Shown: one piece after another, positions 4,770 to 40,229 of the stretch
How the letters are laid out: the number at the start of each line of letters is the position of its first letter
How positions within the stretch are numbered: the first letter of the stretch is position 1
Origin: Alphaproteobacteria bacterium
GTDB taxonomy: Bacteria; Pseudomonadota; Alphaproteobacteria; Ferrovibrionales; Ferrovibrionaceae
Length of the DNA: 40,886 bases
Assembly: GCA_026126215.1 (NCBI GenBank)
Contig: JAHCJQ010000020.1
Location: forward strand, 1-40,886
Direction of reading: 5' to 3'
Position numbers and translations under genes: made by a program
The notes under the pieces: model-generated
Seen by the model: the letters and a program-made list of their open reading frames with translations, nothing else
What the model was told of the DNA's origin: nothing
Databases searched by the model: none

Positions 4770-4869
4770 CTCCCTTGTCCTCCGCAGCTTGCCGCCGCGC
4801 ATGATCACGCCGCCCGTCGCGCGCCGCAAGGCCCGCGGCGCGGACGGTGCGATACTGTCGCGGCTGCAT

Positions 4870-4875
4870 TATAGT
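4870..4875 (+). promoter_or_regulatory. Possible -10 element for the MesD-like gene
   Basis: TATAGT lies in the 155-bp divergent region between the AidB-like gene and the MesD-like gene, 49 bases before the latter's ATG. No convincing -35 hexamer is found 16-18 bases upstream, so this is only a weak candidate. Confidence 0.2.
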
Positions 4876-4924
4876 GCGGCGCGACGGGCGGCGGATCGCG
4901 GCGCCATTCATCCGAGGACATCGC

Positions 4925-5965
4925 ATGACATCCGGACCTCTCTTTCCCACTACCATCGCCGGCAGCCTGCCCAAGCCGTTCTGGCTCGCCGAGCCGGAGA
5001 AGCTGTGGGGTGCGTGGCGGCATGAAGGGGCGGCGCTCGATACGGCCAAGCAGGATGCGGCGCTGCTGTGGCTCAAGGAACAGGAGGATGCGGGCATTGA
5101 CATCGTCACCGACGGCGAGCAGTTCCGCATCCATTTCGTGCACGGGTTCCTCGAACATGTGGAGGGCATCGACTGGAACCGCAAGACGAAGATGGGCATC
5201 CGCGACAACCGCTATGTGGTCGAGGTGCCGACGGTCACCGGCCCGCTGTCGCGCCGCCGCGCGGTCCATGCCGCGGAGGCCCGCTTCATGCGCGCGCATA
5301 CACACCATGGGCTGAAATTCACGCTCCCCGGGCCAATGACGATCTGCGACACCATCGCCGATGCCCATTACGGCCGGCGCGCCGACATGGCGATGGCCTT
5401 CGCCGAGATCCTGAACGAGGAAGCGCGCGAGCTCGAAGCGCAAGGGGTCGATGTCATCCAGTTCGACGAGCCTGCCTTCAATGTCTTCATGCGCGATGTG
5501 AAGGACTGGGGCATCGCGGCGCTCGAGCGCGCCGCCGAGGGACTGAACTGCCGGACGGCGGTCCATATCTGCTATGGCTACGGCATCGAGGCCAATCTCA
5601 AGTGGAAGGAGACCCTGGGATCGGAATGGCGGCAGTACGAGGAGACTTTCCCGGCCATCAATGCGAGCCGCATCCAGCAGGTGTCTCTTGAATGCGCCGG
5701 CTCGCATGTGCCTATCTCGCTGATCTCGCTCTTGCCGGACAAGGAAATACTGGTCGGCGCCATCGACGTCGCCACGCGCCGGGTGGAGACGCCGGAACAG
5801 GTGGCAGATACGATCCGCACCGCGCTGCGCCACGCCGACGCCGCCCGCATCCAACCCTGCACCAATTGCGGCATGGCACCCCTGCCGCGCGAGGTGGCGC
5901 GCGGCAAGCTCGCTGCCCTCGGCGCTGGCGCGGCCCTCGTGCGCGCGGAGGTGAAGTCGCGCTGA
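4925..5965 (+). CDS. MetE C-terminal-domain-type methyltransferase, MesD-like (folate-independent methionine synthase family)
   Basis: A 346-residue single-domain protein equivalent to the catalytic C-terminal half of cobalamin-independent methionine synthase. Zinc ligands of that fold are visible as His214 and Cys216 (AVHICYGYG), Glu256 (SLECAGS) and Cys315 (CTNCGMAPL); FDEPAFN at 180-186 is the conserved homocysteine-binding strand. The opening PTTIAGSLPKP, the block WRQYEETFP and the end CTNCGMAPLPREVARGKL resemble the short methionine synthases called MesD, which I recall from Acinetobacter and relatives. MesD is reported to need a partner, MesX (DUF1852), and oxygen; no MesX lies within this window. 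ATG 4925 is preferred over an upstream in-frame ATG at 4847 because the family begins close to this point. Alternative: another MetE-like methyltransferase with a different thiol acceptor. Confidence 0.8.
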   Translation: MTSGPLFPTTIAGSLPKPFWLAEPEKLWGAWRHEGAALDTAKQDAALLWLKEQEDAGIDIVTDGEQFRIHFVHGFLEHVEGIDWNRKTKMGIRDNRYVVEVPTVTGPLSRRRAVHAAEARFMRAHTHHGLKFTLPGPMTICDTIADAHYGRRADMAMAFAEILNEEARELEAQGVDVIQFDEPAFNVFMRDVKDWGIAALERAAEGLNCRTAVHICYGYGIEANLKWKETLGSEWRQYEETFPAINASRIQQVSLECAGSHVPISLISLLPDKEILVGAIDVATRRVETPEQVADTIRTALRHADAARIQPCTNCGMAPLPREVARGKLAALGAGAALVRAEVKSR

Positions 5966-22816: not shown

Positions 22817-25800
22817 ATGTTGCGATGGACCAGGTTGCTGCTGTTCGTCCTGCCGCTGCTGGCGATGATCGCCGATGCGGCCGCCCAGGCGCCGGAAGCT
22901 GCATCGCCTGCCGCACAGGCGGAGCGGGCGCGGAGGCTCAATGCGGACGCCACCGCCCTGCAGCGGCAGGGCCGCCTGGCGGAGGCGGAGGCGATGTTCC
23001 GCGAGGCGCTAGCGCTGCGCGAGCGGCTCCAGCCGGAGGGCGGTGCGGAGCTGGCCGAAAGCCTGAACAATCTCGGCCTGCTGCTGCGCCTGCGAGGACA
23101 GGCCGACGCGGCGCGCCTCCTGCTCGAGCGAGCGCTTTCGCTGCGCCGCGCGGCCTTTGGCGAAGATCATCCTGCCGTCGCCGTGACGCTCAACAATCTC
23201 GCCATTGCCCGGCACGAGCTAGGCGAGCCGGGCGCGGCACTGGCGCTGCATGAGCGCGCGCTTGCCATCCGCAGCGCGGCCTTCGGTCCCGATCATCCCG
23301 CCGTCGCGCAGAGCCTCAACAACATCGCCTACATCCATCGCAGCGAGGATCGCCAGAACGCCGCCGAGCCGCTCTACCGGCGTGCGCTCGACATCTGGTC
23401 GCGGCACGACCCGGACAGCCTCGATACTGCCGACGGGCTGGACAATCTGGCGACCCTGCTGCAGGACCAGGGGCGTTACTCCGAGGCGCGGCCGATGTTC
23501 GAGCGGGCGCTTGCCATCCGCGAACAGTTGCTTGGAGAGAAGCACGGCCTCGTCGCGCGGAGCCGCAACAATCTCGCGCATGTCTATCGTCATCTCGGCC
23601 TGCACAGGCTGGCGGAGCCGCTGCACCGCTCATCCCTTCGCCTGGGCGAGGAACTCTTCGGGGCCGACAGCCTTGCCGTCGCGGTGGCTTATAACAATCT
23701 CGGCCTCGTGCTTCAGGATCAGGGTCGCCTGATCGAGGCGGAGGCCGCACAGCAGCAGGCGCTGCTGATCCGCGAGCGGCGCAGCGGTCCGGAGAGCGCC
23801 GATGTGGCGCAAAGCCTCAACAACCTTGCCTTCCTGCTGCGCCTGCAAGGCAGGGCGGACCAGGCCGAAGTGCTGTTCCGGCGCGCACTCGCCATCCGCG
23901 AACGCATCTTTGGCGCAAACCATCGCGAGGTCGCCAACAGCCTGCACAACCTGGCGGAGGTCCTGCATGAGAAAGGCGACCAGGCGCGGGCACGCGCGCT
24001 CTACGCGCGGGCGCTTGCCATGCGGGAGGCAATCCTAGGGCCAGCCCACCCTTCCGTCGCCACGACCCTGAACAACCTCGCCATCGTCCTGCGGGCCGAA
24101 GGCGACCTGGCCGAGGCAGAGGCACACTACCAGCGCGCCCTCGAGATCAATCGTGCTTCACTCGGTGCCCTGCATCCGGAGACCGCGACGAACCTCGCCA
24201 ACATCGCCGACCTCCTGCGCGCCCAGGCGCGCCTGCCGGAGGCCCTGACGCTGTTCGGCGAAGCGCTCTTCGTCCGCGAACAGGGACTGGGCAGCGGCCA
24301 TCCCGAGGTCGCACGAATACACGACGCATTGGCGGAGACGCATCTGCGAATGGGTCGGCCCGATCTTGCGCTCGCACAGGCGCGCCGCGCGGTCACGATC
24401 CTCGCGACACGCACCGAACTGCTGCTCGCCGATCGCGGGATGGGAGCGGAAGCGGAATGGCGTTCCCGGCGGCATTACTTTCACCGCCTGCTTTCGCTTC
24501 TTTGGCAGGAGGCGGCGAAGGCCGGCAGGCTTGCCACCAGTGACCTGATGGACGAGGCATTCCGCGCGGCGCAGCTTGCCGGCAGCCTTGAAGTGGCGGG
24601 CGCGGTAGCCAGCATGAGCGCGCGGCTTGCCGACGGCAGTAGCGAACTATCGGAGCGCCTGCGCACCGTCCAGGACCTGCGCGAGCGCCGGCGGCTGCTG
24701 GATCGCGACCTGTTCGAAACCGCAGCGAGCGGCGCCGCCAATGCCGGCACGCGGCGCGGCCGGCTGCTCGAGGAGCTGCGCTCGATCGATGCGGATCTGC
24801 GCGCGACGACCACCTCGCTGGCGCTGGATTTTCCCGGGGCGGGCGAGGCAGCCGCGCTCAGGCCGCGCGGGATCGCCGAGATCGTAGCCCGTCTGGCGCC
24901 TGATGAAGTCCTGCTTATGTGGAGCAGCGGCCGGGACGAGACCTTTCTGTTCGCGGTCTCGGTGGAGCGTTCGCACTGGTGGCGGATCGATGCGGGGCGA
25001 GAGCGGATCGCGGGCTTGGTGCAGGCACTGCGCTCCACGCTCGAGCCGTTCCCCGGCATGCTCGCGAGCGATGTCCGCCCCTTCGACCTTGTCGCCGCGC
25101 ACCAACTTTATCGCCTGCTGTTTGGCCAGGCGGAGACATTCCTCGCGCCGGCACGGCGGTTGCTGACGGTGAGCGATGGCGCGCTGCAGTCGCTGCCCCT
25201 CGCCGTACTTGTTCGCTCGATGCCCGCTTCAGGTCAGGACCATGAGGCCGCCGATTGGCTTGTTCGCCACTTCGCCCTGACCACGCTTCCTTCGGCTTCG
25301 TCCCTGGTCTCGCTCCGCGATGTCCAGCCGCGTCGGGAGACTGGCGGGCCGTTCGTGGGTTTCGGTGACCCGCTTTTCTCCGGCGGACCGGGCGATCTGC
25401 GCGGCGTCACGCCGAGCCTGCTTTGGCGTGGCGGAAGCGTCGATCTCGCGGCCATTCGCGACTTTCCGCGCCTGCCGGAGACAGAGCGCGAGCTGCTGGC
25501 CCAGGCCGCCGCCACAGGGACTGGCGAGCGACGCATTTTCCTGCGTGGCGAGGCGACCGAGCGGCGGGCACGCAGCGGCGTCCTGTCGGATGCGCGGATC
25601 GTGAGCTTCGCCACGCACGGCCTGGTAGCCGGCGAGATCCGGGGTCTTGGCGAACCGGCGCTGGTCCTGACACCACCACCCGCAGCGAGTCCGGAGGATG
25701 ACGGCCTGCTCACCATGTCGGAAGTGGCCGAGTTGCGCCTCGATGCCGACTGGGTCGTTCTCAGCGCCTGCAATACGGCCGCACCGGCGATCGAAGAAGG

Positions 25801-26086
25801 TGCGGAGGGTCTGTCGGGACTGGCGCGCGCCTTCTTCCATGCCGGCGCGCGCGCGCTGCTCGTCTCGCACTGGCAGGTGCTCTCGCAGGCCGCGGTCCAT
25901 CTTACCACCGGCACGTTCGAGGCGCTGGCGAGCGAGCCGGGTATCGGCCGAGCCGAGGCGCTGCGGCGCTCCATGCTGCGGCTGATCGATGGCAGGACCG
26001 GCGACAGGAACCAGGCGCCGGACATGTCCCACCCGCTCTTCTGGGCGCCCTTCATCCTGGTCGGCGAAGGCGGCCCCGGCCGTTGA
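22817..26086 (+). CDS. Exported TPR-CHAT protein (caspase-like protease domain)
   Basis: A 1089-residue protein. Residues 1-24 form a signal peptide (hydrophobic core LLLFVLPLLAMIA, then DAAAQ). About 12 kinesin-light-chain-like TPR units of roughly 42 residues follow (about 30-520), each with a repeat core such as SLNNLGLLLRLRGQ or TLNNLAIVLRAEG. A helical linker leads to a CHAT domain in about the last 350 residues. The caspase-like dyad is intact: His934 in SFATHGLV and Cys985 in LSACNTA, with EGLSGLARAFFHAGARALLVSHW after it. CHAT proteins are Cys proteases; TPR-CHAT forms include the CRISPR-linked craspase, but no CRISPR gene is here and the signal peptide points to the periplasm. The gene is monocistronic; its stop abuts that of the convergent thiolase-like gene with no gap. 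Confidence 0.92.
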   Translation: MLRWTRLLLFVLPLLAMIADAAAQAPEAASPAAQAERARRLNADATALQRQGRLAEAEAMFREALALRERLQPEGGAELAESLNNLGLLLRLRGQADAARLLLERALSLRRAAFGEDHPAVAVTLNNLAIARHELGEPGAALALHERALAIRSAAFGPDHPAVAQSLNNIAYIHRSEDRQNAAEPLYRRALDIWSRHDPDSLDTADGLDNLATLLQDQGRYSEARPMFERALAIREQLLGEKHGLVARSRNNLAHVYRHLGLHRLAEPLHRSSLRLGEELFGADSLAVAVAYNNLGLVLQDQGRLIEAEAAQQQALLIRERRSGPESADVAQSLNNLAFLLRLQGRADQAEVLFRRALAIRERIFGANHREVANSLHNLAEVLHEKGDQARARALYARALAMREAILGPAHPSVATTLNNLAIVLRAEGDLAEAEAHYQRALEINRASLGALHPETATNLANIADLLRAQARLPEALTLFGEALFVREQGLGSGHPEVARIHDALAETHLRMGRPDLALAQARRAVTILATRTELLLADRGMGAEAEWRSRRHYFHRLLSLLWQEAAKAGRLATSDLMDEAFRAAQLAGSLEVAGAVASMSARLADGSSELSERLRTVQDLRERRRLLDRDLFETAASGAANAGTRRGRLLEELRSIDADLRATTTSLALDFPGAGEAAALRPRGIAEIVARLAPDEVLLMWSSGRDETFLFAVSVERSHWWRIDAGRERIAGLVQALRSTLEPFPGMLASDVRPFDLVAAHQLYRLLFGQAETFLAPARRLLTVSDGALQSLPLAVLVRSMPASGQDHEAADWLVRHFALTTLPSASSLVSLRDVQPRRETGGPFVGFGDPLFSGGPGDLRGVTPSLLWRGGSVDLAAIRDFPRLPETERELLAQAAATGTGERRIFLRGEATERRARSGVLSDARIVSFATHGLVAGEIRGLGEPALVLTPPPAASPEDDGLLTMSEVAELRLDADWVVLSACNTAAPAIEEGAEGLSGLARAFFHAGARALLVSHWQVLSQAAVHLTTGTFEALASEPGIGRAEALRRSMLRLIDGRTGDRNQAPDMSHPLFWAPFILVGEGGPGR

Positions 26087-30279: not shown

Positions 30280-31167
30280 ATGCGCAAGACCACGCTGCTG
30301 AAGAATCTCATCCACGCGCCCGAGCTTCTGGTGATGCCCGGTGCCTACGACCCGCTTTCCGCGCGGATCATCGAGGAGGCGGGTTTCGCCGCCATCCAGT
30401 GTTCCGGCTATGGCATATCGGTCAGTCGACTCGGCCTGCCGGACTACAGTTTTCTGTCGCTCACCGACATGGTGGGCGCGAGCAAGTGCATCGCCGATGC
30501 GGTCGGCCTGCCGGTCATGGCCGACGGCGATACCGGCTTCGGCAACGCGGTCAATGCCTGGTACGCGGTACGCGCCTTCGAGGATGCAGGGCTTGCCGGC
30601 GTCAATATCGAGGACCAGGTCATGCCCAAGCGCTGCGGGCATCTGGATGGCAAGGCCATCGTGCCGATCGACGAGGCGGTGGCGAAGGTACGTGCCTGCG
30701 CCGGGGCCCGGAAGGATGCGGATTTCGTCATCAACGCCCGCACCGATGCGCTTGCCATCGGCGGGATCGAGGAGGTGATCCGCCGTGGCAACGCCTACAT
30801 GGAAGCAGGGGCAACCATGATCTTCATCGACGGCATGACCGACCGCGCGCTGGCGCGCCAGGCCGTGCGGGGCATCCGCGGGCCGGTTGCCATCAACGTG
30901 GTCGAGGGCGGCAAGTCGCCCGAGCGGTTCACATTCGCCGAGATGCAGGAGATGGGCATCGCCCGGGTCAGCCTGCCGGGCAGCCTGATCCTCGGCGCGA
31001 TCCAGGGCATGCGCGATGCGCTGGCCGCGGTCAAGGCGAACGGCTATGCCGGCGGCCCTGGCGGTCCGAAGGCGGCCTTCGGCGATCTGCGCCAGCTTGC
31101 CGGCTTCGATCAGGTCTTTGCGCTGGAGAAGACCTATCTCGGCGGATTGCGTTCGGCGGCCGACTGA
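30280..31167 (+). CDS. Isocitrate lyase/PEP mutase superfamily enzyme (PrpB-like carbon-carbon lyase)
   Basis: A 295-residue TIM-barrel enzyme of the isocitrate lyase/PEP phosphonomutase family. Mg-binding Asp82 and Asp84 are in MADGDTGFGN, Glu111-Asp112 in VNIEDQ, and the lyase loop KRCGH is at 117-121 with catalytic Cys119. The Cys-containing loop fits a lyase such as 2-methylisocitrate or dimethylmalate/oxaloacetate-type cleavage rather than a phosphonomutase, but the substrate is not determined and no prpC/prpD genes are near. The ATG has GGGGG six bases upstream. Its stop overlaps the start of the MetE-like gene by one base (TGATG), so the two are translationally coupled and likely serve consecutive steps. 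Confidence 0.9.
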   Translation: MRKTTLLKNLIHAPELLVMPGAYDPLSARIIEEAGFAAIQCSGYGISVSRLGLPDYSFLSLTDMVGASKCIADAVGLPVMADGDTGFGNAVNAWYAVRAFEDAGLAGVNIEDQVMPKRCGHLDGKAIVPIDEAVAKVRACAGARKDADFVINARTDALAIGGIEEVIRRGNAYMEAGATMIFIDGMTDRALARQAVRGIRGPVAINVVEGGKSPERFTFAEMQEMGIARVSLPGSLILGAIQGMRDALAAVKANGYAGGPGGPKAAFGDLRQLAGFDQVFALEKTYLGGLRSAAD

Positions 31168-32336
31168 TGCGGCGGAGCGACGAGCGGATTCTGACCAGCC
31201 ATGTGGGCAGCCTGCCGCGCAACCCGGTCCTGACGGAGCTGCTGATACGCGAGGAGGCGGGCGAGCCGATCGAGGCAGAGGCATTGCATCGGGAGGGAGC
31301 GGCTGCCGTCCGTCATGTTCTGGCGCGCCAGGTCGAAGCCGGCATCGACGTGGTTAATGACGGCGAGCAGCCGCGCGTCGGCTTTCAGACCTATGTCGCC
31401 CGGCGCATGAAGGGGTTCGGCGGCGAATCGAACCGGCCGCGCGCGCCCGATTATCGGGAGTTTCCAGCTTTCGCAGCGCAAACCCTCCGCCGCTTTCCGC
31501 GCCGCGCCCGGATCGTCAACGCGCCGCAGGCGCAGGCGGAGATCGTCTATGATGACCTGTCGGAGGCCGAGCGCGAGATCCGCATCTTCGATGATGCGCT
31601 GGCCGGGCTCGCGCAGCCGCCGGTCGAGGCATTCATGACGGCGGCCTCGCCCGGCATCATCGCGACGACCCTGCTCAATGCCCATTACGACAGCCACGAA
31701 GCCTATGTCTTCGCGCTTGCCCGTCAAATGCGCAAGGAGTACGAGCTCATCGCGCGGCGATACGTGCTGCAGATTGACGCGCCGGACCTCGCCATGGAAC
31801 GGGCCGTGCTCTTCCAGAACCTCTCCGACGCGCAGTTCCTCGCCATCGCGGAAATGCATGTGGCGGCCCTCAACGAGGCGCTGTCCGGCATCCCGCGGGA
31901 GCGGATCCGGCTCCATTGCTGCTGGGGCAACTGGGAAGGCCCGCACCTGCACGACATACCGATGCGCGAGGTGCTGCCCGTGCTGTTCCAGGCCCGTGTC
32001 GGGGCGCTCAGTCTGGAATTCGCCAATCCGCGCCACCAGCACGAGTATGCGGCGCTGAAAGCCGCGCGGCTGCCGGACCACATGCTGCTCCTGCCAGGCG
32101 TGATCGACAGCACGACCAATTTCGTCGAGCATCCCGACGTGGTCGCCAATCGCATCTGCGAGGCCGTGGCGGCGGTGGGCGAGCGCAGTCGCGTCATCGC
32201 CTCCGCCGATTGCGGCTTTGGCACATTCGCCGGCAGCGAATATGTGGCCGAGGACGTGGTCTGGGCAAAGCTCCAGGCCTGCCGGCAGGGCGCGGACATC
32301 GCCAGCGGCCGGCTCTGGGGGCCCGTCCGCTCCTGA
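31167..32336 (+). CDS. MetE/epoxyalkane:CoM transferase-like zinc methyl- or alkyltransferase
   Basis: A 389-residue protein of the cobalamin-independent methionine synthase C-terminal-domain superfamily, distinct from the MesD-like protein near the window start. Zinc ligands fit His250 and Cys252 (RLHCCWGN), Glu284 (SLEFANP) and Cys349 (SADCGFGTFAG). The N-terminus ILTSHVGSLPRNPVL and the NDGEQPRVGFQTYV strand are those of the subgroup commonly annotated as methionine synthase II or epoxyalkane:coenzyme M transferase-like. These enzymes activate a thiol on zinc and transfer an alkyl group to or from it. True methionine synthesis is unlikely: DAPDLAM (205-211) replaces the usual DEP-containing strand. 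It is coupled to the lyase gene (TGATG). Confidence 0.85.
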   Translation: MRRSDERILTSHVGSLPRNPVLTELLIREEAGEPIEAEALHREGAAAVRHVLARQVEAGIDVVNDGEQPRVGFQTYVARRMKGFGGESNRPRAPDYREFPAFAAQTLRRFPRRARIVNAPQAQAEIVYDDLSEAEREIRIFDDALAGLAQPPVEAFMTAASPGIIATTLLNAHYDSHEAYVFALARQMRKEYELIARRYVLQIDAPDLAMERAVLFQNLSDAQFLAIAEMHVAALNEALSGIPRERIRLHCCWGNWEGPHLHDIPMREVLPVLFQARVGALSLEFANPRHQHEYAALKAARLPDHMLLLPGVIDSTTNFVEHPDVVANRICEAVAAVGERSRVIASADCGFGTFAGSEYVAEDVVWAKLQACRQGADIASGRLWGPVRS

Positions 32337-32357: not shown

Positions 32358-33440
32358 TCAGGAACCGGCGATCAGATGCATGTCGTCGGCACGCCAGCCG
32401 ACGCTGATGGTCCCACCCTCCCGGACATCGCCCGATTCCATGCCCGCGATACGCACACGCAGCGGAATCCGGCCGGATTGGCCCATGACCAGCAGGCTGT
32501 CGCCGTAATTGACCGTGCCCTCCACCCGCATCTGGACGGTGGCGACCAGGTCCGGTCTCGGCTCCGTACCGATCAGGCGCAGCCGCTCGGGCCGGATCAG
32601 GACATGTACCGGACCGGCCGGGGCGCCGGCGCCGAGCTTGCTCGCCTCGCAGACAGGGCCGATCCCGTCGATGGAGAGCTTGCCATTGGCGCCGGCCTCG
32701 ATGCGTCCCTGCAGGAAGTTGCTGTCGCCGATGAACTCGCCCACGAACCGGGTCAGTGGCCGGCCATAGACTTCGAGCGGTGGCGCCACCTGTTCGAGCC
32801 GGCCATGATTGAAGACCGCGACGCGGTCGGACATGGTCATGGCCTCGGTCTGGTCATGGGTGACGTAGACCATGGTGATGCCGACCTCCCGGTGGATGCG
32901 CTTGAGCTCGACTTGCATCTGCTCGCGCAGGTTCTTGTCGAGTGCGCCGAGCGGCTCGTCGAGCAGTAGCACGTCTGGCCGGAAGACCAGCCCGCGCGCC
33001 AGGGCGACGCGTTGCTGCTGGCCACCGGAGAGTTCACGGGGATGGCGTTCGGAAAAGCGGGACAGACCGACGAGCTCCAGAGCCTCGGCTACCCTGCGGC
33101 CGATATCGGCACGCGGCGCGCCGCGCATGCGCAGCGGGAACGCGACATTTTTCGCCACCGTCATGTGCGGAAACAGCGCGTAGTTCTGGAACACCATGCC
33201 GATGTTGCGCTGGTATGGCTTTTGGGCCGTCAGGTCCTTGCCGTCGAGGTCGATCGTTCCTCTCGTCGGGTCCTCGAAACCGGCAATCATCATCAGGGTC
33301 GTGGTCTTGCCGGATCCGCTCGGACCCAGGAAAGTTATGAACTCGCCCTTGGCGATGTCGATGCTGATGTCGTCGACGGCATTGCTGATGCCGTCGTACG
33401 ACTTCACGATGTTTCGCAGGCGCAGATAGCTGTCCGACAC
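32358..33440 (-). CDS. Polyamine/opine-type ABC transporter ATP-binding protein (PotA class)
   Basis: A 360-residue importer ATPase. Walker A is LGPSGSGKTTT, Q-loop VFQNYALFPHMTV, signature LSGGQQQRVALARGL, Walker B VLLLDEPLGALD and switch VTHDQTEAM. A C-terminal TOBE domain (about residues 275-358) is typical of the PotA/FbpC class. The start is GTG with CAGGGA upstream, three bases after the stop of the enoyl-CoA hydratase gene. It must pair with the two permeases encoded further upstream in the same operon, but an acyl-CoA ligase and a hydratase are placed between, which is unusual for this transporter class. It converges on the MetE-like gene with 21 bp between stops. Confidence 0.93.
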   Translation of the reverse strand: MSDSYLRLRNIVKSYDGISNAVDDISIDIAKGEFITFLGPSGSGKTTTLMMIAGFEDPTRGTIDLDGKDLTAQKPYQRNIGMVFQNYALFPHMTVAKNVAFPLRMRGAPRADIGRRVAEALELVGLSRFSERHPRELSGGQQQRVALARGLVFRPDVLLLDEPLGALDKNLREQMQVELKRIHREVGITMVYVTHDQTEAMTMSDRVAVFNHGRLEQVAPPLEVYGRPLTRFVGEFIGDSNFLQGRIEAGANGKLSIDGIGPVCEASKLGAGAPAGPVHVLIRPERLRLIGTEPRPDLVATVQMRVEGTVNYGDSLLVMGQSGRIPLRVRIAGMESGDVREGGTISVGWRADDMHLIAGS

Positions 33441-33443
33441 GTT

Positions 33444-34256
33444 CTATTCCCTGAACTGGGCCGCGCGCCACTTGAGAGCGGCGCCCAGGCCATCTTTCTT
33501 CTTGATCTCGTCGAACTTCGTCCCGACCTCGGTCTTGGCCGCGTAGAGTGGGGCAACGATGTCGAGGCCGACATTCATGGCATTCCGGAAGCCCGCCGCG
33601 TCGGCGCCGCGATTGATCGAGAGCTTGGCCGCATAGAGTGCCTCCGGCGAGATGAGAGCCAGACGCTTGGCGAACTTCATGGTGGCGGCACGCAATTCGG
33701 CGACCGGGACCACCTTGTTCACCATGCCGAGACGCAGCGCTTCCTGCGCGTCGATGCTGTCGCCGAGATAGAGCAGCTCGCGCGCCTTCTTGAAGCCGAT
33801 GATCCAGGGCATCACGATGCCAGGCCCGACATCGGAGAAGCGCACCTCCGGCTCGCCGAAGGTCGCATCATCCGCGGCGATGGTGATGTCGCACAGCATG
33901 GCGAGTTCGCAGCCCCCGCCCAGCGCATGGCCCTGGACCGAGGCGACCACCGGCTTGCGCATGTCGTAGGGCAGCATCTCCATGGCCATGCTCGCCCGCA
34001 GGTGCTCATGCCATTTCAGCGCGTCGTGCTTCCAGGATTCCTTGGAAGGGTCGCCACCGATATCGTAGCCGACACAGAAGCTGCGGCCCTCGGCGCGGAG
34101 CACGACGACCGAGGTTGCGGGGTCGCCATCCGCCTTTGTCAGCGCCGCCACGAGCTGCTCGCGCAGGTCGCGGCTGATGGCATTGAGCTTCGCCGGCCGG
34201 TTCAGCGTGACGATGCTGACCTTCTCGTCGACCTCGTAATTGACAAGCGTTTCCAT
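33444..34256 (-). CDS. Enoyl-CoA hydratase/isomerase family protein (crotonase fold)
   Basis: A 270-residue crotonase-family protein. The oxyanion-hole and catalytic region reads SVQGHALGGGCELAMLCD, with the first catalytic Glu in GCEL, and FGEPEVRF supplies the second Glu of PE, as in true hydratases. The first oxyanion loop is SFCVGYDIGG. Substrates could be enoyl-CoAs or aryl-enoyl-CoAs; hydratase/lyase action as in ferulate degradation is possible but not shown. I prefer ATG 34256, which leaves AAGGGG at workable distance. The alternative GTG 34268 overlaps the ligase stop by 4 nt but has its GG stretch directly adjacent. It lies between the acyl-CoA ligase and the transporter ATPase genes. 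Confidence 0.88.
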   Translation of the reverse strand: METLVNYEVDEKVSIVTLNRPAKLNAISRDLREQLVAALTKADGDPATSVVVLRAEGRSFCVGYDIGGDPSKESWKHDALKWHEHLRASMAMEMLPYDMRKPVVASVQGHALGGGCELAMLCDITIAADDATFGEPEVRFSDVGPGIVMPWIIGFKKARELLYLGDSIDAQEALRLGMVNKVVPVAELRAATMKFAKRLALISPEALYAAKLSINRGADAAGFRNAMNVGLDIVAPLYAAKTEVGTKFDEIKKKDGLGAALKWRAAQFRE

Positions 34257-34264
34257 GCTCGAAC

Positions 34265-36388
34265 TCACCCCTTGGCTGATTTTGCGGGCACGATCAGGGC
34301 ATCGACGACGACGCAGCCCCGACCCTGAGGAAGGACCATGATGGGATTGAGGTCCATTTCGACGATATTCGCCCGGTCCGCATGGGCAAAGTCGGCGAGC
34401 GCGTAGAGACAGCGCGCAAGGCTTTCCACGTCGGCTGGTGGCGCACCGCGAATGCCACGCAGCATCGCGGCGCCGCGAATTTCGCCGATCATCGCCTCGG
34501 CATCGCCCTGGCGTAGCGGCAGCATCCGCAGCGCGAAGTCGCGCATCACCTCGATGGCGATGCCGCCGAGACCGAAGGCAAGGACCGGGCCGAAGTCCGG
34601 ATCGCGGCTTACGCCGGCAAAGACTTCGATGCCGCCCTTGACCATCTGTTGCACGACAATGCCCGCAATGGCCGGCCGGCCGCCGGGCATGGCGGCAAGC
34701 CGCCCGTCGATCAGGCGCCAGGCGGCGTCCAGTGCCGCCTCATCCGCGATGCCGACGATCACCAGGCCATGCTCGGACTTGTGCGCAATCTCGTCCGAGG
34801 CGACCTTCATGACAACAGGGTATCCGATGGTCCGCGCGGCGGCGCGGGCCTCATCCAGGCCGCGCACCAGTTCCTCGCGCGTGACGGGAATGCCGTGCTG
34901 GGCGAGAAGGCGCTTGGCATCGTACTCGTTGATCGTCTTGCGGGCACTGTGGCCGAGCAGGGAGAGCACACCAGCGCCGTGCTGCATGGCGGCCGGACGG
35001 AGCGGGGCCCGAGGCTGCAGGTATCGGGCGATGCGATCCACCGCACCCAGCCCCTGGCGCACGCCACCGATGGTGACGATGCCCTGCTCGCGCAGAAAGT
35101 CGACCTGTACGCGGTTCATCAGGCCCGGACGGGTATTGAGCAGGTAGTGCGGTCGCTCGCTCTGCCGGGCGGAGTCTGCCAGCAGCTTGACATAGTCGAG
35201 CGCGCGCTCGGGCCGGCCCATGGGCTGGTCGTCGCAACTGTCGCTGCAGAAAGCGATGACGTCGAGATCGGGCGTCTCGCGCAGAACCTTGAAAGCATGT
35301 GGCATGTTGGTGGCATAGTCGCCGTTGCCCCAGGCATCGAGAGGGTTTCCATCCCCGGTGATCGGCCCGATGACGCGCTCGGCCTCCATGCGCGAGGCTT
35401 CGGGTAGCGGTGGCAGGTCAAGGCCACAGGAGGAGCCGACATCGAGCGCGAGTTCCGCCTGGCCGCCGGATGCGGTGATCAGCGAAAGCCGGCGACCGGT
35501 CGGCCAGCGCGTGCCCTGGCAGACAGCCAGCACTTCCGTCAACTCGTCCATATCGTCGACTTCGATGGCGCGATGGGCGCGCAGGACTTCGGAGAAGACG
35601 CGCGATTCGCCGGCCAAGCCGCCGGTGTGGCTGGTGATGGCGTGGCGCGTGCGCTCCGTCCGGCCGACCTTGAGCACCACGACCGGCTTGCCGCGATCGG
35701 CCGCCCGGTCCAGAGCGGCGATGAAGCGCTCCGGTTCCCGTACCGACTCAGTGAAGAGGGCGATCACCTTGGTGACGTCGTCCTCGATCAGCGCTTCCAT
35801 GTATTCCGCGGTGTTTATCAGCGCTTCGTTGCCGGAAGAGATCACGTGGCTGAAGCCGAAGCGGCGGAGGTCGGTCAACATGCCGATGCAGATCGAGCCG
35901 CTCTGCGAGATCAGTCCGACATTGCCGGACAGACCCTTGGGATCGCGCAGCTCCTGCATATAGACGGAACTGCGCGTCACGGGGTTGAGGATACCCATGC
36001 AGTTCGGGCCGTTCAGCTTGATTCCCGTCTCACGGCAGATGCCAACGATCTCCGACTGGAGTTTCGCGCCCTCTTCTCCACGTTCGGCGAAGCCGCCATC
36101 GAAGATGACAGCCGCCCGCGCGCCTCTGGCTGCCATGGGACGGAAATTCTCGAGGATGCGCGTGTAATTGACGCAGAAGGCCACCACGTCGGGCGGCTCC
36201 GGCAGGGCTTCTAGTCCGGGATAGCATTTATGCCCCAGAAGCTCCGGGTACTTCGGATTGATCGGGTAGATCCGCCCCTGGTAACCCAGTCGCTCGGCCG
36301 AGACCATGAGCTGGCGTCCCGGCGAAGGTCTGTCCGATGCCCCGAGGATTGCAATGGACTTTGGATTGAGCAGGGCATCAAGGGACAT
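34265..36388 (-). CDS. ADP-forming acyl-CoA ligase (acetate--CoA ligase family; CoA-binding, Succ_CoA_lig and ATP-grasp domains)
   Basis: A 707-residue fused alpha-beta NDP-forming acyl-CoA synthetase. The N-terminal CoA-binding Rossmann domain starts MSLDALLNPKSIAILGASD. The ligase domain carries the phospho-His motif SHTGGLAG in RHAITSHTGGLAGESR. The C-terminal ATP-grasp domain shows GYPVVMKVASDEIAHKSEHG and ends in the EMDLNPIMV strand. These proteins make acyl-CoA, ADP and phosphate from a carboxylate; relatives include archaeal acetyl-CoA synthetases and the feruloyl-CoA synthetase FerA of Sphingobium. The substrate is unknown. The ATG lies within the 3' end of the permease gene (11-nt overlap), so it is part of the transporter operon. 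Confidence 0.92.
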   Translation of the reverse strand: MSLDALLNPKSIAILGASDRPSPGRQLMVSAERLGYQGRIYPINPKYPELLGHKCYPGLEALPEPPDVVAFCVNYTRILENFRPMAARGARAAVIFDGGFAERGEEGAKLQSEIVGICRETGIKLNGPNCMGILNPVTRSSVYMQELRDPKGLSGNVGLISQSGSICIGMLTDLRRFGFSHVISSGNEALINTAEYMEALIEDDVTKVIALFTESVREPERFIAALDRAADRGKPVVVLKVGRTERTRHAITSHTGGLAGESRVFSEVLRAHRAIEVDDMDELTEVLAVCQGTRWPTGRRLSLITASGGQAELALDVGSSCGLDLPPLPEASRMEAERVIGPITGDGNPLDAWGNGDYATNMPHAFKVLRETPDLDVIAFCSDSCDDQPMGRPERALDYVKLLADSARQSERPHYLLNTRPGLMNRVQVDFLREQGIVTIGGVRQGLGAVDRIARYLQPRAPLRPAAMQHGAGVLSLLGHSARKTINEYDAKRLLAQHGIPVTREELVRGLDEARAAARTIGYPVVMKVASDEIAHKSEHGLVIVGIADEAALDAAWRLIDGRLAAMPGGRPAIAGIVVQQMVKGGIEVFAGVSRDPDFGPVLAFGLGGIAIEVMRDFALRMLPLRQGDAEAMIGEIRGAAMLRGIRGAPPADVESLARCLYALADFAHADRANIVEMDLNPIMVLPQGRGCVVVDALIVPAKSAKG

Positions 36389-37145
36389 TTTTGGGCTTTC
36401 TGCGGAAGACGACCGAGGTGACGACACCGATCAGCACGGCGCCGATCAGGAGGGACGAAACGACGGCGATGATCGGATCGGATTCGAGGCGGATGCTCTC
36501 GTACATCTTCTTGGGCAGCGTCGCCGCATCACGCCCGGAGATAAAGATGGCGACCACTGCCTCGTTGAAGGAGGCGAGAAACGAAAACAGCGCGCCGACC
36601 ATCATGCCAGGTCGCAGGACCGGGAGCGTCACATAGAAGAAGGTGCGCAACGGCCCGGCGCCGGCGCTCATGGCGGCACGTTCGAGGTTCCGGTCGAACC
36701 CCTTGATGGTGGCACAAACCACGAGAAAGGCGATCGGTACCGCAAGGACGCCGTGAGCCAGGATCACGCCCGGCAGCGTGCCGTTGAGCCGCGCCATGCT
36801 GAAGTAGCCGTAATAGGCCAGCGCAGCCACGACATGCGGCACGATCAGCGGCGACATCATCAGCAGATTGAAGAACGATTTGCCGCGGAAGCGATGCCGC
36901 ACGTAGCCGAATGAAGCCGGCACGACCAGCACCATGGTCACGGCCATGCTCAAGATGGCAATGACGAAGCTATTCACGGTCGGCTGCAGCCAGTCGTAGG
37001 AAGTGAAATAGGCCTGATAGTAGCCGAGCGAGTAGCCGGGCGGTGGAAACTGGAAGGAGATCGCCGTGCTGAAGGACATCGGGATGATGATCAGGATCGG
37101 CGAGATCAGGAAGATTGCGACGAGGATCGCGAGCGCCATGACCAT
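36378..37145 (-). CDS. Polyamine/opine-type ABC transporter permease (PotC class)
   Basis: A 255-residue inner-membrane permease with about six hydrophobic segments. The periplasmic loop SFPPPGYSLGYYQAYF-like region (FQFPPPGYSLGYYQ) and the EAA loop ERAAMSAGAGPLRTFFYVTLPVLRP-type contact region are typical of PotC/PotI. It ends RRKPKNVP. The ATG has GGAGG eight bases upstream. It follows the PotB-class gene after 16 bp, and its stop overlaps the acyl-CoA ligase start by 11 nt. Confidence 0.93.
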   Translation of the reverse strand: MVMALAILVAIFLISPILIIIPMSFSTAISFQFPPPGYSLGYYQAYFTSYDWLQPTVNSFVIAILSMAVTMVLVVPASFGYVRHRFRGKSFFNLLMMSPLIVPHVVAALAYYGYFSMARLNGTLPGVILAHGVLAVPIAFLVVCATIKGFDRNLERAAMSAGAGPLRTFFYVTLPVLRPGMMVGALFSFLASFNEAVVAIFISGRDAATLPKKMYESIRLESDPIIAVVSSLLIGAVLIGVVTSVVFRRKPKNVP

Positions 37146-37161: not shown

Positions 37162-38046
37162 TCAGCCCCACAGCCTGTCGAGGCCGACGAAGCGGTTGTA
37201 TATCGCCAGCACGATGGAGGTGGCGACCAGCAGCACCACCGCGATCGCCGAGGCGAAACCCCAGGCGAGCAGTTCCTCGATCTGCTGGTTGACGAGCTGG
37301 GAAATCATCATGTCCTTCGGCGTGCCGAGCAGGATTGGCGTCACGAAGAAGCCGAGGCAGATGGTGAACACCAGGATGCTGCCATTCACCACGCCGGGCA
37401 GGCTGAGCGGCAGGAAGACCGCGCGGAACGCCGCGTTCGGCCGGGCGCCCAGGCTTGCCGCGGCCCGCAGCAGGTTCGGGTCGATCTTCTTCATCACGCT
37501 GTAGAGCGCCAGGACCATGTAGGGCAGCAGGATGTGCGTCATGCCAAGGGTCGAGGCAAAACTCGTGAACAGGAGCTGCGGCGGCGCGCCGAAGCCAAGG
37601 CCCTGCCAGACCGCCGCGACTGGCCCCTTGTTGCCGAGGATGACCAGCCACGCATATGTCCGGACGATGAAGCCGGTCCAGAAGCAGACGGCGACGCAGA
37701 TCAGCAATGTCAACGATATCCAGTCGTTGCGCCGCGATATCACGTAGGCAAGGGGATAGGCGAGCAGCAGGCAGATCACCGTCACCGTGAGCGACGTGGC
37801 AAAGGTATTGAAGAGGATGCGGGTATAGAGAGGCACGGCGAAAATGCGCTGATAATGCGCCAGCGACACCTGCGGATCGGTGAAGCTGAGCAGGAGCACA
37901 TAGCCGATCGGCAGCACGAAAAGCAGAACCAGCGCGGCGGTCGCCGGCATCAGAAGAAGCCAGGGGACCGCGCCAGCGCCCGGGCCCTGCGGTACTGCCG
38001 CAGGGCCCGTCGCCGTTGCCGGAGCTGCGGTTACGACGCCAGCCAT
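37162..38046 (-). CDS. Polyamine/opine-type ABC transporter permease (PotB class)
   Basis: A 294-residue inner-membrane permease with an Ala/Pro-rich cytoplasmic N-terminus and about six membrane segments from residue 29 on. FWTGFIVRTYAWLVILGNKGPV is the conserved second segment of PotB proteins, and RAAASLGARPNAAFRAVFLPLSLPG is the EAA loop that docks on the PotA-class ATPase. The ATG at 38046 overlaps the end of the preceding solute-binding protein gene by 16 nt; the longer in-frame extension is antisense-like and excluded. It forms the channel with the PotC-class protein. Confidence 0.93.
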   Translation of the reverse strand: MAGVVTAAPATATGPAAVPQGPGAGAVPWLLLMPATAALVLLFVLPIGYVLLLSFTDPQVSLAHYQRIFAVPLYTRILFNTFATSLTVTVICLLLAYPLAYVISRRNDWISLTLLICVAVCFWTGFIVRTYAWLVILGNKGPVAAVWQGLGFGAPPQLLFTSFASTLGMTHILLPYMVLALYSVMKKIDPNLLRAAASLGARPNAAFRAVFLPLSLPGVVNGSILVFTICLGFFVTPILLGTPKDMMISQLVNQQIEELLAWGFASAIAVVLLVATSIVLAIYNRFVGLDRLWG

Positions 38047-39104
38047 TGCGAGAAGCGCTCCTGGATCAATGCGAGGTTGGCCGCTTCCCACTCGATATTC
38101 GAGGGCGCGATCTGCTTGTAATTCTCCTCGTAGGTCGGGAGCTGCTTCGCGACCTCCGGCTTGATGTGCTTGAACGCTTCCGGATTGGTCGGACCATAGT
38201 AGAGGCGGTTCGAGAAATCCGCCTGCGGCTTGGCCTGCACCGCGAACTGTATGAACTCCCAGGCCGCTTTGCGGTTCGGCGCGCCCTTGGCCACTCCCCA
38301 CATGGTGGTGGAAACCGTGGCGCCGTTCCAGACCAGCTCCACGGGAACCCCCTGCCCGGCCAGTTCCGAGGCACGCGCGTTCCACATGGCCATCATGTCG
38401 ACTTCGCCGTCGCGGATGAGCTGCTGGGACTGATTGCCCTGCGTCCACCAGACCTTGATGTGCGGCTTGATCTCGGTGAGCTTGCGCAGCGCCCGGTCGA
38501 CATCGAGCGGATAGAGCTTGTCCTTAGGCACGCCATCGGCAAGCAGCGCGAAGATTACCGTGCGCAGCGAGTTGTTATAGAGCGAGCGGTTGCCGGGGAA
38601 CTTCTTCACGTCCCAGAAATCCGCCCATGATTTTGGGCCGCCATTCGGGAACTTGTCCTTGCGATAGACGAGGTTGGTCCCGAGCGCGCAGTAAGCAATG
38701 CCATTGGCGAAGACCGCGTTCGGGAACAAGGCGTCCTTGTTGACTACGGTCCAGTCGATCGGCTCGACCAGACCCTCACGCTCCGCGCGCAGCCACTCCG
38801 CCTGGTTGATGGCGGTGATGTCCCATTCGTAACTGCCGGTCTGTACCTGCGCCTTGAGCTTGGCATAGGAGACTGGCGCGACCGTGCGCACGCGGATGCC
38901 GGTTGCCTCGGTGAACGGCTTGAAAAACGCGGCTTCCTCCGCCGCCGTCCAGCTTCCGCCCCAGGTATTGACATAGATCGTGCGGGTCTGCGCGATTGTC
39001 CGTTCGGTCACGATCAGCGGGCCGATACCGGCGGCGGCAACGAGGCCACCGCCGAGTTTAAGCACCTGACGGCGACTCCGCCCTGATTTTCCTGATGTCT
39101 TCAT
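38031..39104 (-). CDS. Polyamine/opine-type solute-binding protein with Tat-like signal, paralogue 1
   Basis: A 357-residue periplasmic binding protein of the spermidine/putrescine-like group. The N-terminus SRRQVLKLGGGLVAAAG is a twin-arginine signal with cleavage expected near TIAQ, so it is probably exported folded. The mature start RTIYVNTWGGSWTAAEE and the core LVYRKDKFPNGGPKSWADFW are shared with the neighbouring paralogue. Divergence is greatest around residues 90-145, from TAINQAEWLRAE to the CALGTN strand, which in this fold lines the ligand cleft. It lies 66 bp after the paralogue and overlaps the PotB-class permease gene by 16 nt, so it is the gene tied most tightly to the permeases. 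Confidence 0.93.
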   Translation of the reverse strand: MKTSGKSGRSRRQVLKLGGGLVAAAGIGPLIVTERTIAQTRTIYVNTWGGSWTAAEEAAFFKPFTEATGIRVRTVAPVSYAKLKAQVQTGSYEWDITAINQAEWLRAEREGLVEPIDWTVVNKDALFPNAVFANGIAYCALGTNLVYRKDKFPNGGPKSWADFWDVKKFPGNRSLYNNSLRTVIFALLADGVPKDKLYPLDVDRALRKLTEIKPHIKVWWTQGNQSQQLIRDGEVDMMAMWNARASELAGQGVPVELVWNGATVSTTMWGVAKGAPNRKAAWEFIQFAVQAKPQADFSNRLYYGPTNPEAFKHIKPEVAKQLPTYEENYKQIAPSNIEWEAANLALIQERFSQWLAS

Positions 39105-39170: not shown

Positions 39171-40229
39171 TCAGCTCGCCAGCCACTGTGCGAAACGCTC
39201 GCGGATCTGGCCGAGGCGCGGAGCAAGCCACTCCGCGTCCGGCTGGTAGGCGACCTTGACCCGGTCGGGGCGTGAAGGCATCTTCGCCGCCACTTCCGGG
39301 CTGATGTAGTCGAAGGCCTTCGGGTTCGCCGGCCCATAGGGCAGGATCGAGCAGAAGGCAGCTTCCTGCTGCGGCTGGGAAGCGAACTTCAGGTATTCCC
39401 AGGCCAGCTTGGCGCGCGGCGTCCCCTTGGCAACGAAACGGAAGCTTGTGTAGTTCTCGGCCCCGTTCCAAACGATTTCAAGCGGCGCGCCACGGTCGAT
39501 CAGTTCCTGCGCGCGGGCATTCCACATGGCGATCATGTCGACCTCGCCATCCTGGATAAGCTGCTGCGACTGCGCGCCCTGTGTCCACCAGACCTTGATG
39601 TGCGGCTTGATCTCGTTCAGCTTCTTGAAGGCCCGGTCGAGATCGAGCGGGTAAAGCTTGTCGGCCGGCACGCCATCTGCGAGCAGCGCGAAGGCGAGCG
39701 TGGTGAAGGAACGGTCGTAGAGGCAGCGATTGCCCGGGAATTTCTTCACGTCCCAGAAGTCAGCCCATGACTGTGGCCCGCCATTCGGGAACTTGTCCTT
39801 GCGGTAGACGAGGACGGTACTAAGCACCACCGAGGCGACGCCGAACTGGTTGATGTTCTGCGGCGGATACTGGGTACGGTCGATGATGGAATGGTCGATC
39901 GGCTCCAGCAGTCCCTCATGCATTGCCTGGCTAAACTCGACGATGCCGAGTCCCGAAACGTCCCACTCATATTGGCCGGACTGCACCTGCGCCTTGAGCT
40001 TGGCGAAGGAGACCGGCGCCACCGTTCGCACGCGAATTCCGGTTTTTGCGGTGAAGGGCTTGAAATAGGCCGCCTCTTCTGCCGCGGTCCAGCTTCCGCC
40101 CCAGGTATTGACGTAGACGGTTCGCTCCTGGGCGCCGGCGGCGCGAATGATCGAAGGAGCGAGCGCGAGTGTTGCGGCGGTCGCACCCGCGCCGTGGATG
40201 AGCTTGCGCCTGGTAATGGTCCTGGTCAT
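39171..40229 (-). CDS. Polyamine/opine-type solute-binding protein with Tat-like signal, paralogue 2
   Basis: A 352-residue periplasmic binding protein, a tandem paralogue of the next gene with long identical stretches (VNTWGGSWTAAEEAA, VKKFPGNR, IKPHIKVWWTQG). The signal TITRRKLIHGAGATAATLAL is twin-arginine-like with cleavage near AGAQ. The segment SGLGIVEFSQAMHEG and what follows to about residue 140 differs strongly from paralogue 1, suggesting another ligand or affinity for the same transporter. The ATG has GGGAGGAATC upstream. It begins 89 bp after the reductase gene on the same strand and is followed by paralogue 1 after 66 bp, so it opens the transport operon or continues one that starts outside the window. 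Confidence 0.93.
   Translation of the reverse strand: MTRTITRRKLIHGAGATAATLALAPSIIRAAGAQERTVYVNTWGGSWTAAEEAAYFKPFTAKTGIRVRTVAPVSFAKLKAQVQSGQYEWDVSGLGIVEFSQAMHEGLLEPIDHSIIDRTQYPPQNINQFGVASVVLSTVLVYRKDKFPNGGPQSWADFWDVKKFPGNRCLYDRSFTTLAFALLADGVPADKLYPLDLDRAFKKLNEIKPHIKVWWTQGAQSQQLIQDGEVDMIAMWNARAQELIDRGAPLEIVWNGAENYTSFRFVAKGTPRAKLAWEYLKFASQPQQEAAFCSILPYGPANPKAFDYISPEVAAKMPSRPDRVKVAYQPDAEWLAPRLGQIRERFAQWLAS

Follow-up and report, generated by a model that had tools for sequence, protein, structure and literature searches.

Gene organization of the locus

The window considered here, i.e. the whole stretch of 40,886 nt that was analysed (contig JAHCJQ010000020.1 from an uncultured alphaproteobacterium of the family Ferrovibrionaceae), contains an operon in which the genes of an ABC importer of the Pot class are interleaved with genes of CoA-ester metabolism. 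According to the open reading frames of the window, the operon comprises seven complete genes and one partial gene, all on the minus strand (Table 1). Transcription runs from the partial gene, for a reductase of the crotonyl-CoA carboxylase/reductase (CCR) type, through two genes for substrate-binding proteins (SBP1 and SBP2) and two permease genes (B and C), to the genes for an ADP-forming acyl-CoA ligase (ACD), an enoyl-CoA hydratase (ECH) and finally the ATPase. A PotA-type ATPase (360 bits for the TIGR01187 model, whose cut-off is 355.6), PotB/PotC-type permeases and SBP_bac_8 proteins are encoded together, and the transporter is thus a Pot-class ABC importer.

The genes are closely packed. 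Overlaps are found between SBP2 and permease B (16 nt, with ATG as the permease B start), permease C and ACD (11 nt) and ACD and ECH (4 nt), and short gaps between ECH and the ATPase (3 nt) and between the two permeases (16 nt). Wider gaps separate SBP1 from SBP2 (66 nt) and CCR from SBP1 (89 nt). The initial annotation of this locus described seven genes, and their order, coordinates, 11-nt overlap, 3-nt gap and family assignments are borne out by reading frames and domain models; it overlooked the eighth gene, the partial CCR frame upstream of SBP1.

The N-terminal half of the CCR gene is located at the end of contig C170 of the same genome, and the two halves are 98–99% identical to residues 1–224 and 226–413 of the CCR encoded in a sister genome of the same genus (locus L008). 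A gene for a GntR/FCD regulator, likewise absent from the initial annotation, is divergent to the CCR gene in L008, in locus L011 and on contig C170. Scans for promoters (0 found versus 1.3 expected) and for terminators (three terminator-like sites versus 4.9 expected) are uninformative. Co-regulation of the operon genes is presumed.

Table 1. Genes of the minus-strand operon in the window, in the order of transcription
Gene and product	Coordinates	Strand	Domains, models and remarks
CCR-type reductase, C-terminal 188 aa	40319..40885	−	TIGR01751, 7.5e-73; truncated at the contig end, probably heads the operon
SBP1, periplasmic binding protein	39171..40229	−	SBP_bac_8; GABA/opine-receptor branch of the Pot class
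SBP2, paralogue of SBP1 (~60% identical)	38031..39104	−	SBP_bac_8
Permease B, PotB/PotH-like	37162..38046	−	BPD_transp_1; top NCBIfam model PotB
Permease C, PotC/PotI-like	36378..37145	−	BPD_transp_1; top model PotC
ACD, ADP(NDP)-forming acyl-CoA ligase	34265..36388	−	Pfam CoA_binding_2, Succ_CoA_lig and ATP-grasp_5
ECH, crotonase-fold enoyl-CoA hydratase/dehydratase	33444..34268	−	ECH_1, 6.5e-49
ATPase, PotA-like with TOBE_2	32358..33440	−	ABC_tran; TIGR01187 potA

Conservation of the arrangement

Relatives of the locus were gathered with the window ACD as query. A close relative of ACD is present in 8 of the 385 sampled genomes of the class, with a patchy distribution. ACD lies between a permease gene and the ATPase gene in six lineages (L008, L011, L017, L013, L113 and L009, the last being a Rokubacteria contig), and the same gene order is found in the first five at ACD identities of 54–97%. 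In all six, as in the window, the ATG of ACD is located 11 nt inside the end of permease C, and ECH follows ACD in every one of these loci except L009. Tandem SBPs number three in L011 and four in L017, and a CCR paralogue is found upstream of the SBPs in L008, L011 and L017. Comparison of the window with L008 gives dN/dS values of 0.009–0.057 for the seven complete genes, ACD and ECH included; all seven are under strong purifying selection. The synteny is therefore not unique to one genome, in line with the conserved block expected by the initial annotation. The arrangement is real and old, and a chance insertion of ACD and ECH is rejected in view of the kept order, the kept 11-nt overlap and the selection on both genes.

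Elsewhere, the surroundings of ACD are diverse. L010 contains the set GntR–ACD–ECH–CCR with no transporter there, L014 and L015 have an aminotransferase gene upstream of ACD–ECH, and ACD of L012 is followed by an ABC transporter of the NitT/TauT type. The linkage of CCR with the transporter in L008, L011 and L017, together with the transporter-free set of L010, suggests that ACD, ECH and CCR belong to one pathway. Collectively, the varied neighbourhoods point to ACD–ECH as the core, with CCR as a frequent partner and an exchangeable type of transporter.

Two peculiarities concern individual loci. The ACD frame of L011 (L011:8001-10099) is split into two overlapping frames, as it is in genome G104, owing to a frameshift or an assembly error. 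L013 and L113 both contain, downstream of the ATPase gene, genes for an acyl-CoA dehydrogenase and for a second, distant ACD.

Binding proteins and their pocket

The SBPs resemble PotD weakly, with 51 bits versus a cut-off of 582 and versus 236 bits for the match to 4i1d. Other strong matches are the γ-aminobutyrate (GABA) sensor protein Pf622 (iGABASnFR), Atu4243 and the receptors of agropine and mannopine. The PDB relatives of SBP1 include 4i1d, iGABASnFR and 4eq7. Atu4243, PA0222 and Pf622 are Pot-class (COG0687) GABA receptors and thus have an amino-carboxylate as ligand. The binding site seen in the complex with GABA consists of Trp9, Thr13, Phe100, Tyr102, Trp202, Arg205, Asp228 and Tyr264, and the amino group is bound by Asp228.

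The pockets were compared by alignment with confirmed residue numbering, in which Arg205 and Asp228 are Arg203 and Asp226 of Atu4243. Trp9, Trp202, Arg205 and Tyr264 are retained in every operon SBP aligned, as in the GABA receptors of the same branch. Unlike these receptors, all operon SBPs have Ser, Thr or Gly at position 228 (Ser in SBP1 and Thr in SBP2), Trp at position 13, and small or aliphatic residues at positions 100 (Cys, Val or Ile) and 102 (Leu). Of the Arg205/Asp228 pair of a GABA receptor, only the Arg is present, and given these pocket changes GABA is not expected as the ligand of the operon. The SBPs also depart from polyamine-specific PotD and PotF by their low PotD score, their closer relation to GABA and opine receptors and the neutral equivalent of Asp228; a polyamine ligand is rejected in view of both the SBP family and the pocket residues.

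The retention of Arg205 combined with the loss of Asp228 suggests that the ligand is a carboxylate without a primary amine at the place of residue 228. From its charge and position, Arg205 probably touches the carboxylate of the ligand, a contact reportedly described in the work on Atu4243. The pocket thus argues for the carboxylate rather than polyamine ligand of the initial annotation. Such a ligand is not novel for the Pot class, since carboxylate ligands of its SBPs are already known, from the three GABA receptors and from RPA4648 of Rhodopseudomonas palustris, a COG0687 ‘polyamine’ SBP that bound p-coumarate experimentally. With RPA4648, the window SBPs would share a non-amine carboxylate as ligand, as predicted from their pocket.

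SBPs of the same branch occur in other contexts. Beyond the contig break, some 9 kb upstream of the operon, L106 (G000 C170:16000-27563) contains a second SBP that is 63% identical to SBP2, as well as a second ACD, an LLM (luciferase-like) monooxygenase and a PaaK-like ligase close together, adjoining an IclR regulator. Genome G077 has at least five orphan SBPs (L140–L144), 57–65% identical to SBP2, on separate contigs and with no adjacent permeases; several adjoin genes for Rieske dioxygenase subunits, LLM monooxygenases, a UbiD-like decarboxylase or a CoA ligase. This set possibly represents an orphan-receptor expansion. Lastly, a conserved operon (L115, L116, L118 and L120) encodes an IclR regulator, two hypothetical proteins, a membrane dipeptidase, an SBP of the same family, two permeases and an ATPase, its hosts being Bosea, Aminobacter, Microvirga and Neorhizobium plasmids.

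Ligase, hydratase and reductase

The ligase has the CoA-binding, succinyl-CoA-ligase-like and ATP-grasp domains and the phospho-His of the ACD superfamily. Among proteins of solved structure, it is closest to 4-hydroxybutyrate-CoA ligase, 3-hydroxypropionate-CoA ligase and DddX, the ATP-dependent dimethylsulfoniopropionate (DMSP) lyase of the superfamily. In the tree, the ACD clade groups with DddX and three more Trp-bearing sequences (support 0.92), and a Variovorax ligase joins next (support 0.99). The phospho-His (His292 in DddX) is common to DddX and the window ligase, as are Tyr181 and Trp391, which are kept in nearly the whole clade and are rare elsewhere in the superfamily. In contrast, Glu432, the base of DddX, is conserved in no clade member and Asp208 is not conserved either. 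Because of the missing Glu432, DMSP lyase activity is unexpected and the candidacy of ACD as such a lyase is weakened, whereas a similar pocket is expected. DddX also differs in its surroundings, as in Psychrobacter it is linked to a BCCT carrier and not to an ABC transporter of this type. A second ACD of the clade in G077 (L110:950-3482) is directly followed by a gene of the family of FlK, the thioesterase specific for fluoroacetyl-CoA.

In ECH, both catalytic Glu residues (equivalents of rat Glu144 and Glu164, in the motifs GGGCE and FGEPE) are found in the eight orthologues inspected, so that hydration and dehydration are each possible.

The operon reductase shares 53% identity with the canonical CCR of the ethylmalonyl-CoA pathway encoded in the same genome. 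In the CO2 site of CCR, a bridging water is held by Glu171 and His365. The operon CCR retains the equivalents of Asn81 and His365 as well as the Phe/Tyr170 position (Tyr), and departs from a carboxylating site at Glu171 only, where Gln is found in all four lineages inspected (L008, L010, L011 and a partial reading of L017). Unlike it, the canonical copy has Glu and is paired with the gene for ethylmalonyl-CoA mutase (ecm) on contig C181, a pairing that the operon copy lacks. Judged by this residue, the operon CCR is plausibly a plain enoyl-CoA reductase.

Proposed pathway and its alternatives

These observations are best accommodated if the genes form one catabolic operon, which channels a monocarboxylate into CoA-ester metabolism by import, CoA activation, β-(de)hydration and NADPH-dependent reduction, a reading to which we assign a probability of about 60%. 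The acid would be captured at the Arg/Trp site that both paralogous SBPs conserve, and then carried inward by the PotBC/PotA-type transporter, driven by ATP. The DddX-clade ligase would then make the acyl-CoA through its phospho-histidine, and the crotonase would add or remove water across C2–C3 of the CoA ester. NADPH-dependent reduction of the 2-enoyl-CoA would fall to the CCR paralogue and, since its CO2 site has Gln in place of Glu171, would probably involve little if any carboxylation. The reduced product may join central metabolism by the propionyl/methylmalonyl-CoA or the ethylmalonyl-CoA route, for which the genome encodes mutases and carboxyltransferases. As a leading guess from the sequences, the ligand would be a short acid of the 3-hydroxy or 2-enoic kind, resembling either 3-hydroxypropionate/acrylate or 3-hydroxybutyrate/crotonate.

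The initial annotation had the acid trapped as a CoA ester and hydrated. Import followed by CoA trapping is still the simplest reading, backed by the unrelated importer–ligase–crotonase operons described below, but the direction of the hydratase step is unreadable from sequence, and the presence of an enoyl-CoA reductase in the operon makes dehydration to the enoyl-CoA at least as likely as hydration.

Several observations weigh against the pathway as outlined. The Rokubacteria locus L009 has the transporter and ACD without an adjacent ECH, and L013 and L113 have no adjacent CCR, which indicates that neither ECH nor CCR is strictly indispensable. The change of Glu171 to Gln is mild, and an aromatic acid is a possible substrate, as SBPs of the branch adjoin aromatic-degradation genes in G077.

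In an unlikely alternative, although one with arguments from both the ligase and the SBPs, the imported carboxylate also bears a positive charge, as do DMSP, carnitine, γ-butyrobetaine and related betaines. Arg205 would grip the carboxylate and the Trp residues the onium group, the DddX-clade ligase would make the CoA ester, and the released or dehydrated enoyl-CoA would be left to ECH and CCR, by an AcuH/AcuI- or CaiD/CaiA-like logic. The grouping of ACD with DddX and its retention of Tyr181 and of Trp391, the cation-π residue for DMSP, fit such a substrate, but the DddX base is kept in no clade member. Similarly, in SBPs whose nearest characterised relatives bind GABA, the loss of Asp228 and the Trp gained at position 13 would be compatible with a quaternary amine; yet the aromatic residues at positions 100 and 102 of the GABA receptors are replaced, leaving no net gain for an aromatic cage. 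As to genomic context, the neighbours of a 47% identical ACD homologue in G051 are a CaiD-like crotonase and two acyl-CoA dehydrogenases, whereas no demethylase or dimethyl sulfide gene is seen in the operons and several loci come from assemblies of soil or freshwater, according to their titles.

A hydroxycinnamate or another aromatic acid as substrate, with ACD in the role of an ADP-forming feruloyl-CoA synthetase and ECH in that of a hydratase/lyase, appears improbable. The p-coumarate bound by RPA4648, the aromatic-degradation neighbours of the G077 SBPs and the known coumarate logic, in which an importer is combined with a CoA ligase and a crotonase, favour it. However, the p-hydroxycinnamoyl-CoA hydratase/lyase (HCHL) model is outside the 25 best models listed for ECH, no aldehyde dehydrogenase is recognised in the operon or in the conserved neighbourhoods, and a CCR/AcuI-type enoyl-CoA reductase has no role in a hydratase/lyase route. 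Finally, an ordinary importer of polyamines or GABA-type amino compounds, with ACD and ECH as chance passengers, is very improbable despite PotA, PotB, PotC and PotD being the best annotation-level models, given the poor PotD match, the loss of the amine-binding Asp from all operon SBPs and an insertion and 11-nt overlap kept down to ~54% ACD identity with dN/dS of ~0.05.

Relation to known systems

Comparable clusters support the idea of acid import followed by CoA-ester formation, on which ligases of two unrelated folds and transporters of two classes converge. On plasmid 4 of Variovorax sp. SRS16, as in the window, an enoyl-CoA reductase (AcuI, above the curated cut-off), an ADP-forming ligase and a crotonase are encoded together with an ABC importer, in the uninterrupted order AcuI–ACD–ECH–importer. 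Here, the importer is of the TauBCA type, i.e. of the taurine/sulfonate class, and follows the enzymes, the reductase is AcuI instead of CCR-type and the ligase is 36% identical to the window ACD. In Caballeronia grimmiae and Bosea vaviloviae, genes for a crotonase, an SBP of the same family, an ATPase, a fused permease and an AMP-forming CoA ligase occur in a row. Their SBPs have Glu at position 228 and the first Glu is missing from their crotonases, so that the substrates probably differ from that of the window operon.

The coumarate uptake system CouPSTU–CouB–CouA of R. palustris is another carboxylate ABC importer encoded alongside a CoA ligase and a hydratase of the crotonase fold, and such a combination is thus already known. 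CouPSTU differs from the window operon in its SBP, which is of the LivK class and encoded on the strand opposite to the transporter operon, in its regulation by CouR (MarR-type) and in that no enoyl-CoA reductase is named in its cluster. A literature search, with most subscription papers outside it, revealed no described operon of the same composition. As far as this literature shows, the gene combination and its translational coupling within a transporter operon are new.

More tentatively, and with confidence well below even, the operon may represent a new catabolic route in which a DddX-clade ligase, a crotonase and a CCR paralogue lacking the carboxylating Glu are translationally coupled with a Pot-class importer. 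Its SBPs would have switched from amino-carboxylates to amine-free (or onium) carboxylates, and CCR would thus have been recruited as a plain enoyl-CoA reductase for the imported acid. Genome annotation labels such transporters spermidine/putrescine systems, while synteny and pocket point one branch of them to carboxylate catabolism. This provides a rule for the re-annotation of many ‘PotD’ genes (Arg205 kept, Asp228 lost and a CoA ligase inside the operon). In addition, a natural Glu171-to-Gln paralogue of CCR is useful for asking which residues set carboxylation versus reduction only.

Other genes in the window

Tandem PrpB/PEP (phosphoenolpyruvate)-mutase-like and MetE-like genes on the plus strand (30280-32336) are convergent with the operon. 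They are rejected as operon members, being on the other strand and kept only in L008 among the compared loci. A second MetE-like gene is found at 4847-5965 on the plus strand. The same strand encodes, at 22817-26086, a protein of 1089 aa with tetratricopeptide repeats and a C-terminal CHAT (caspase-like) domain.

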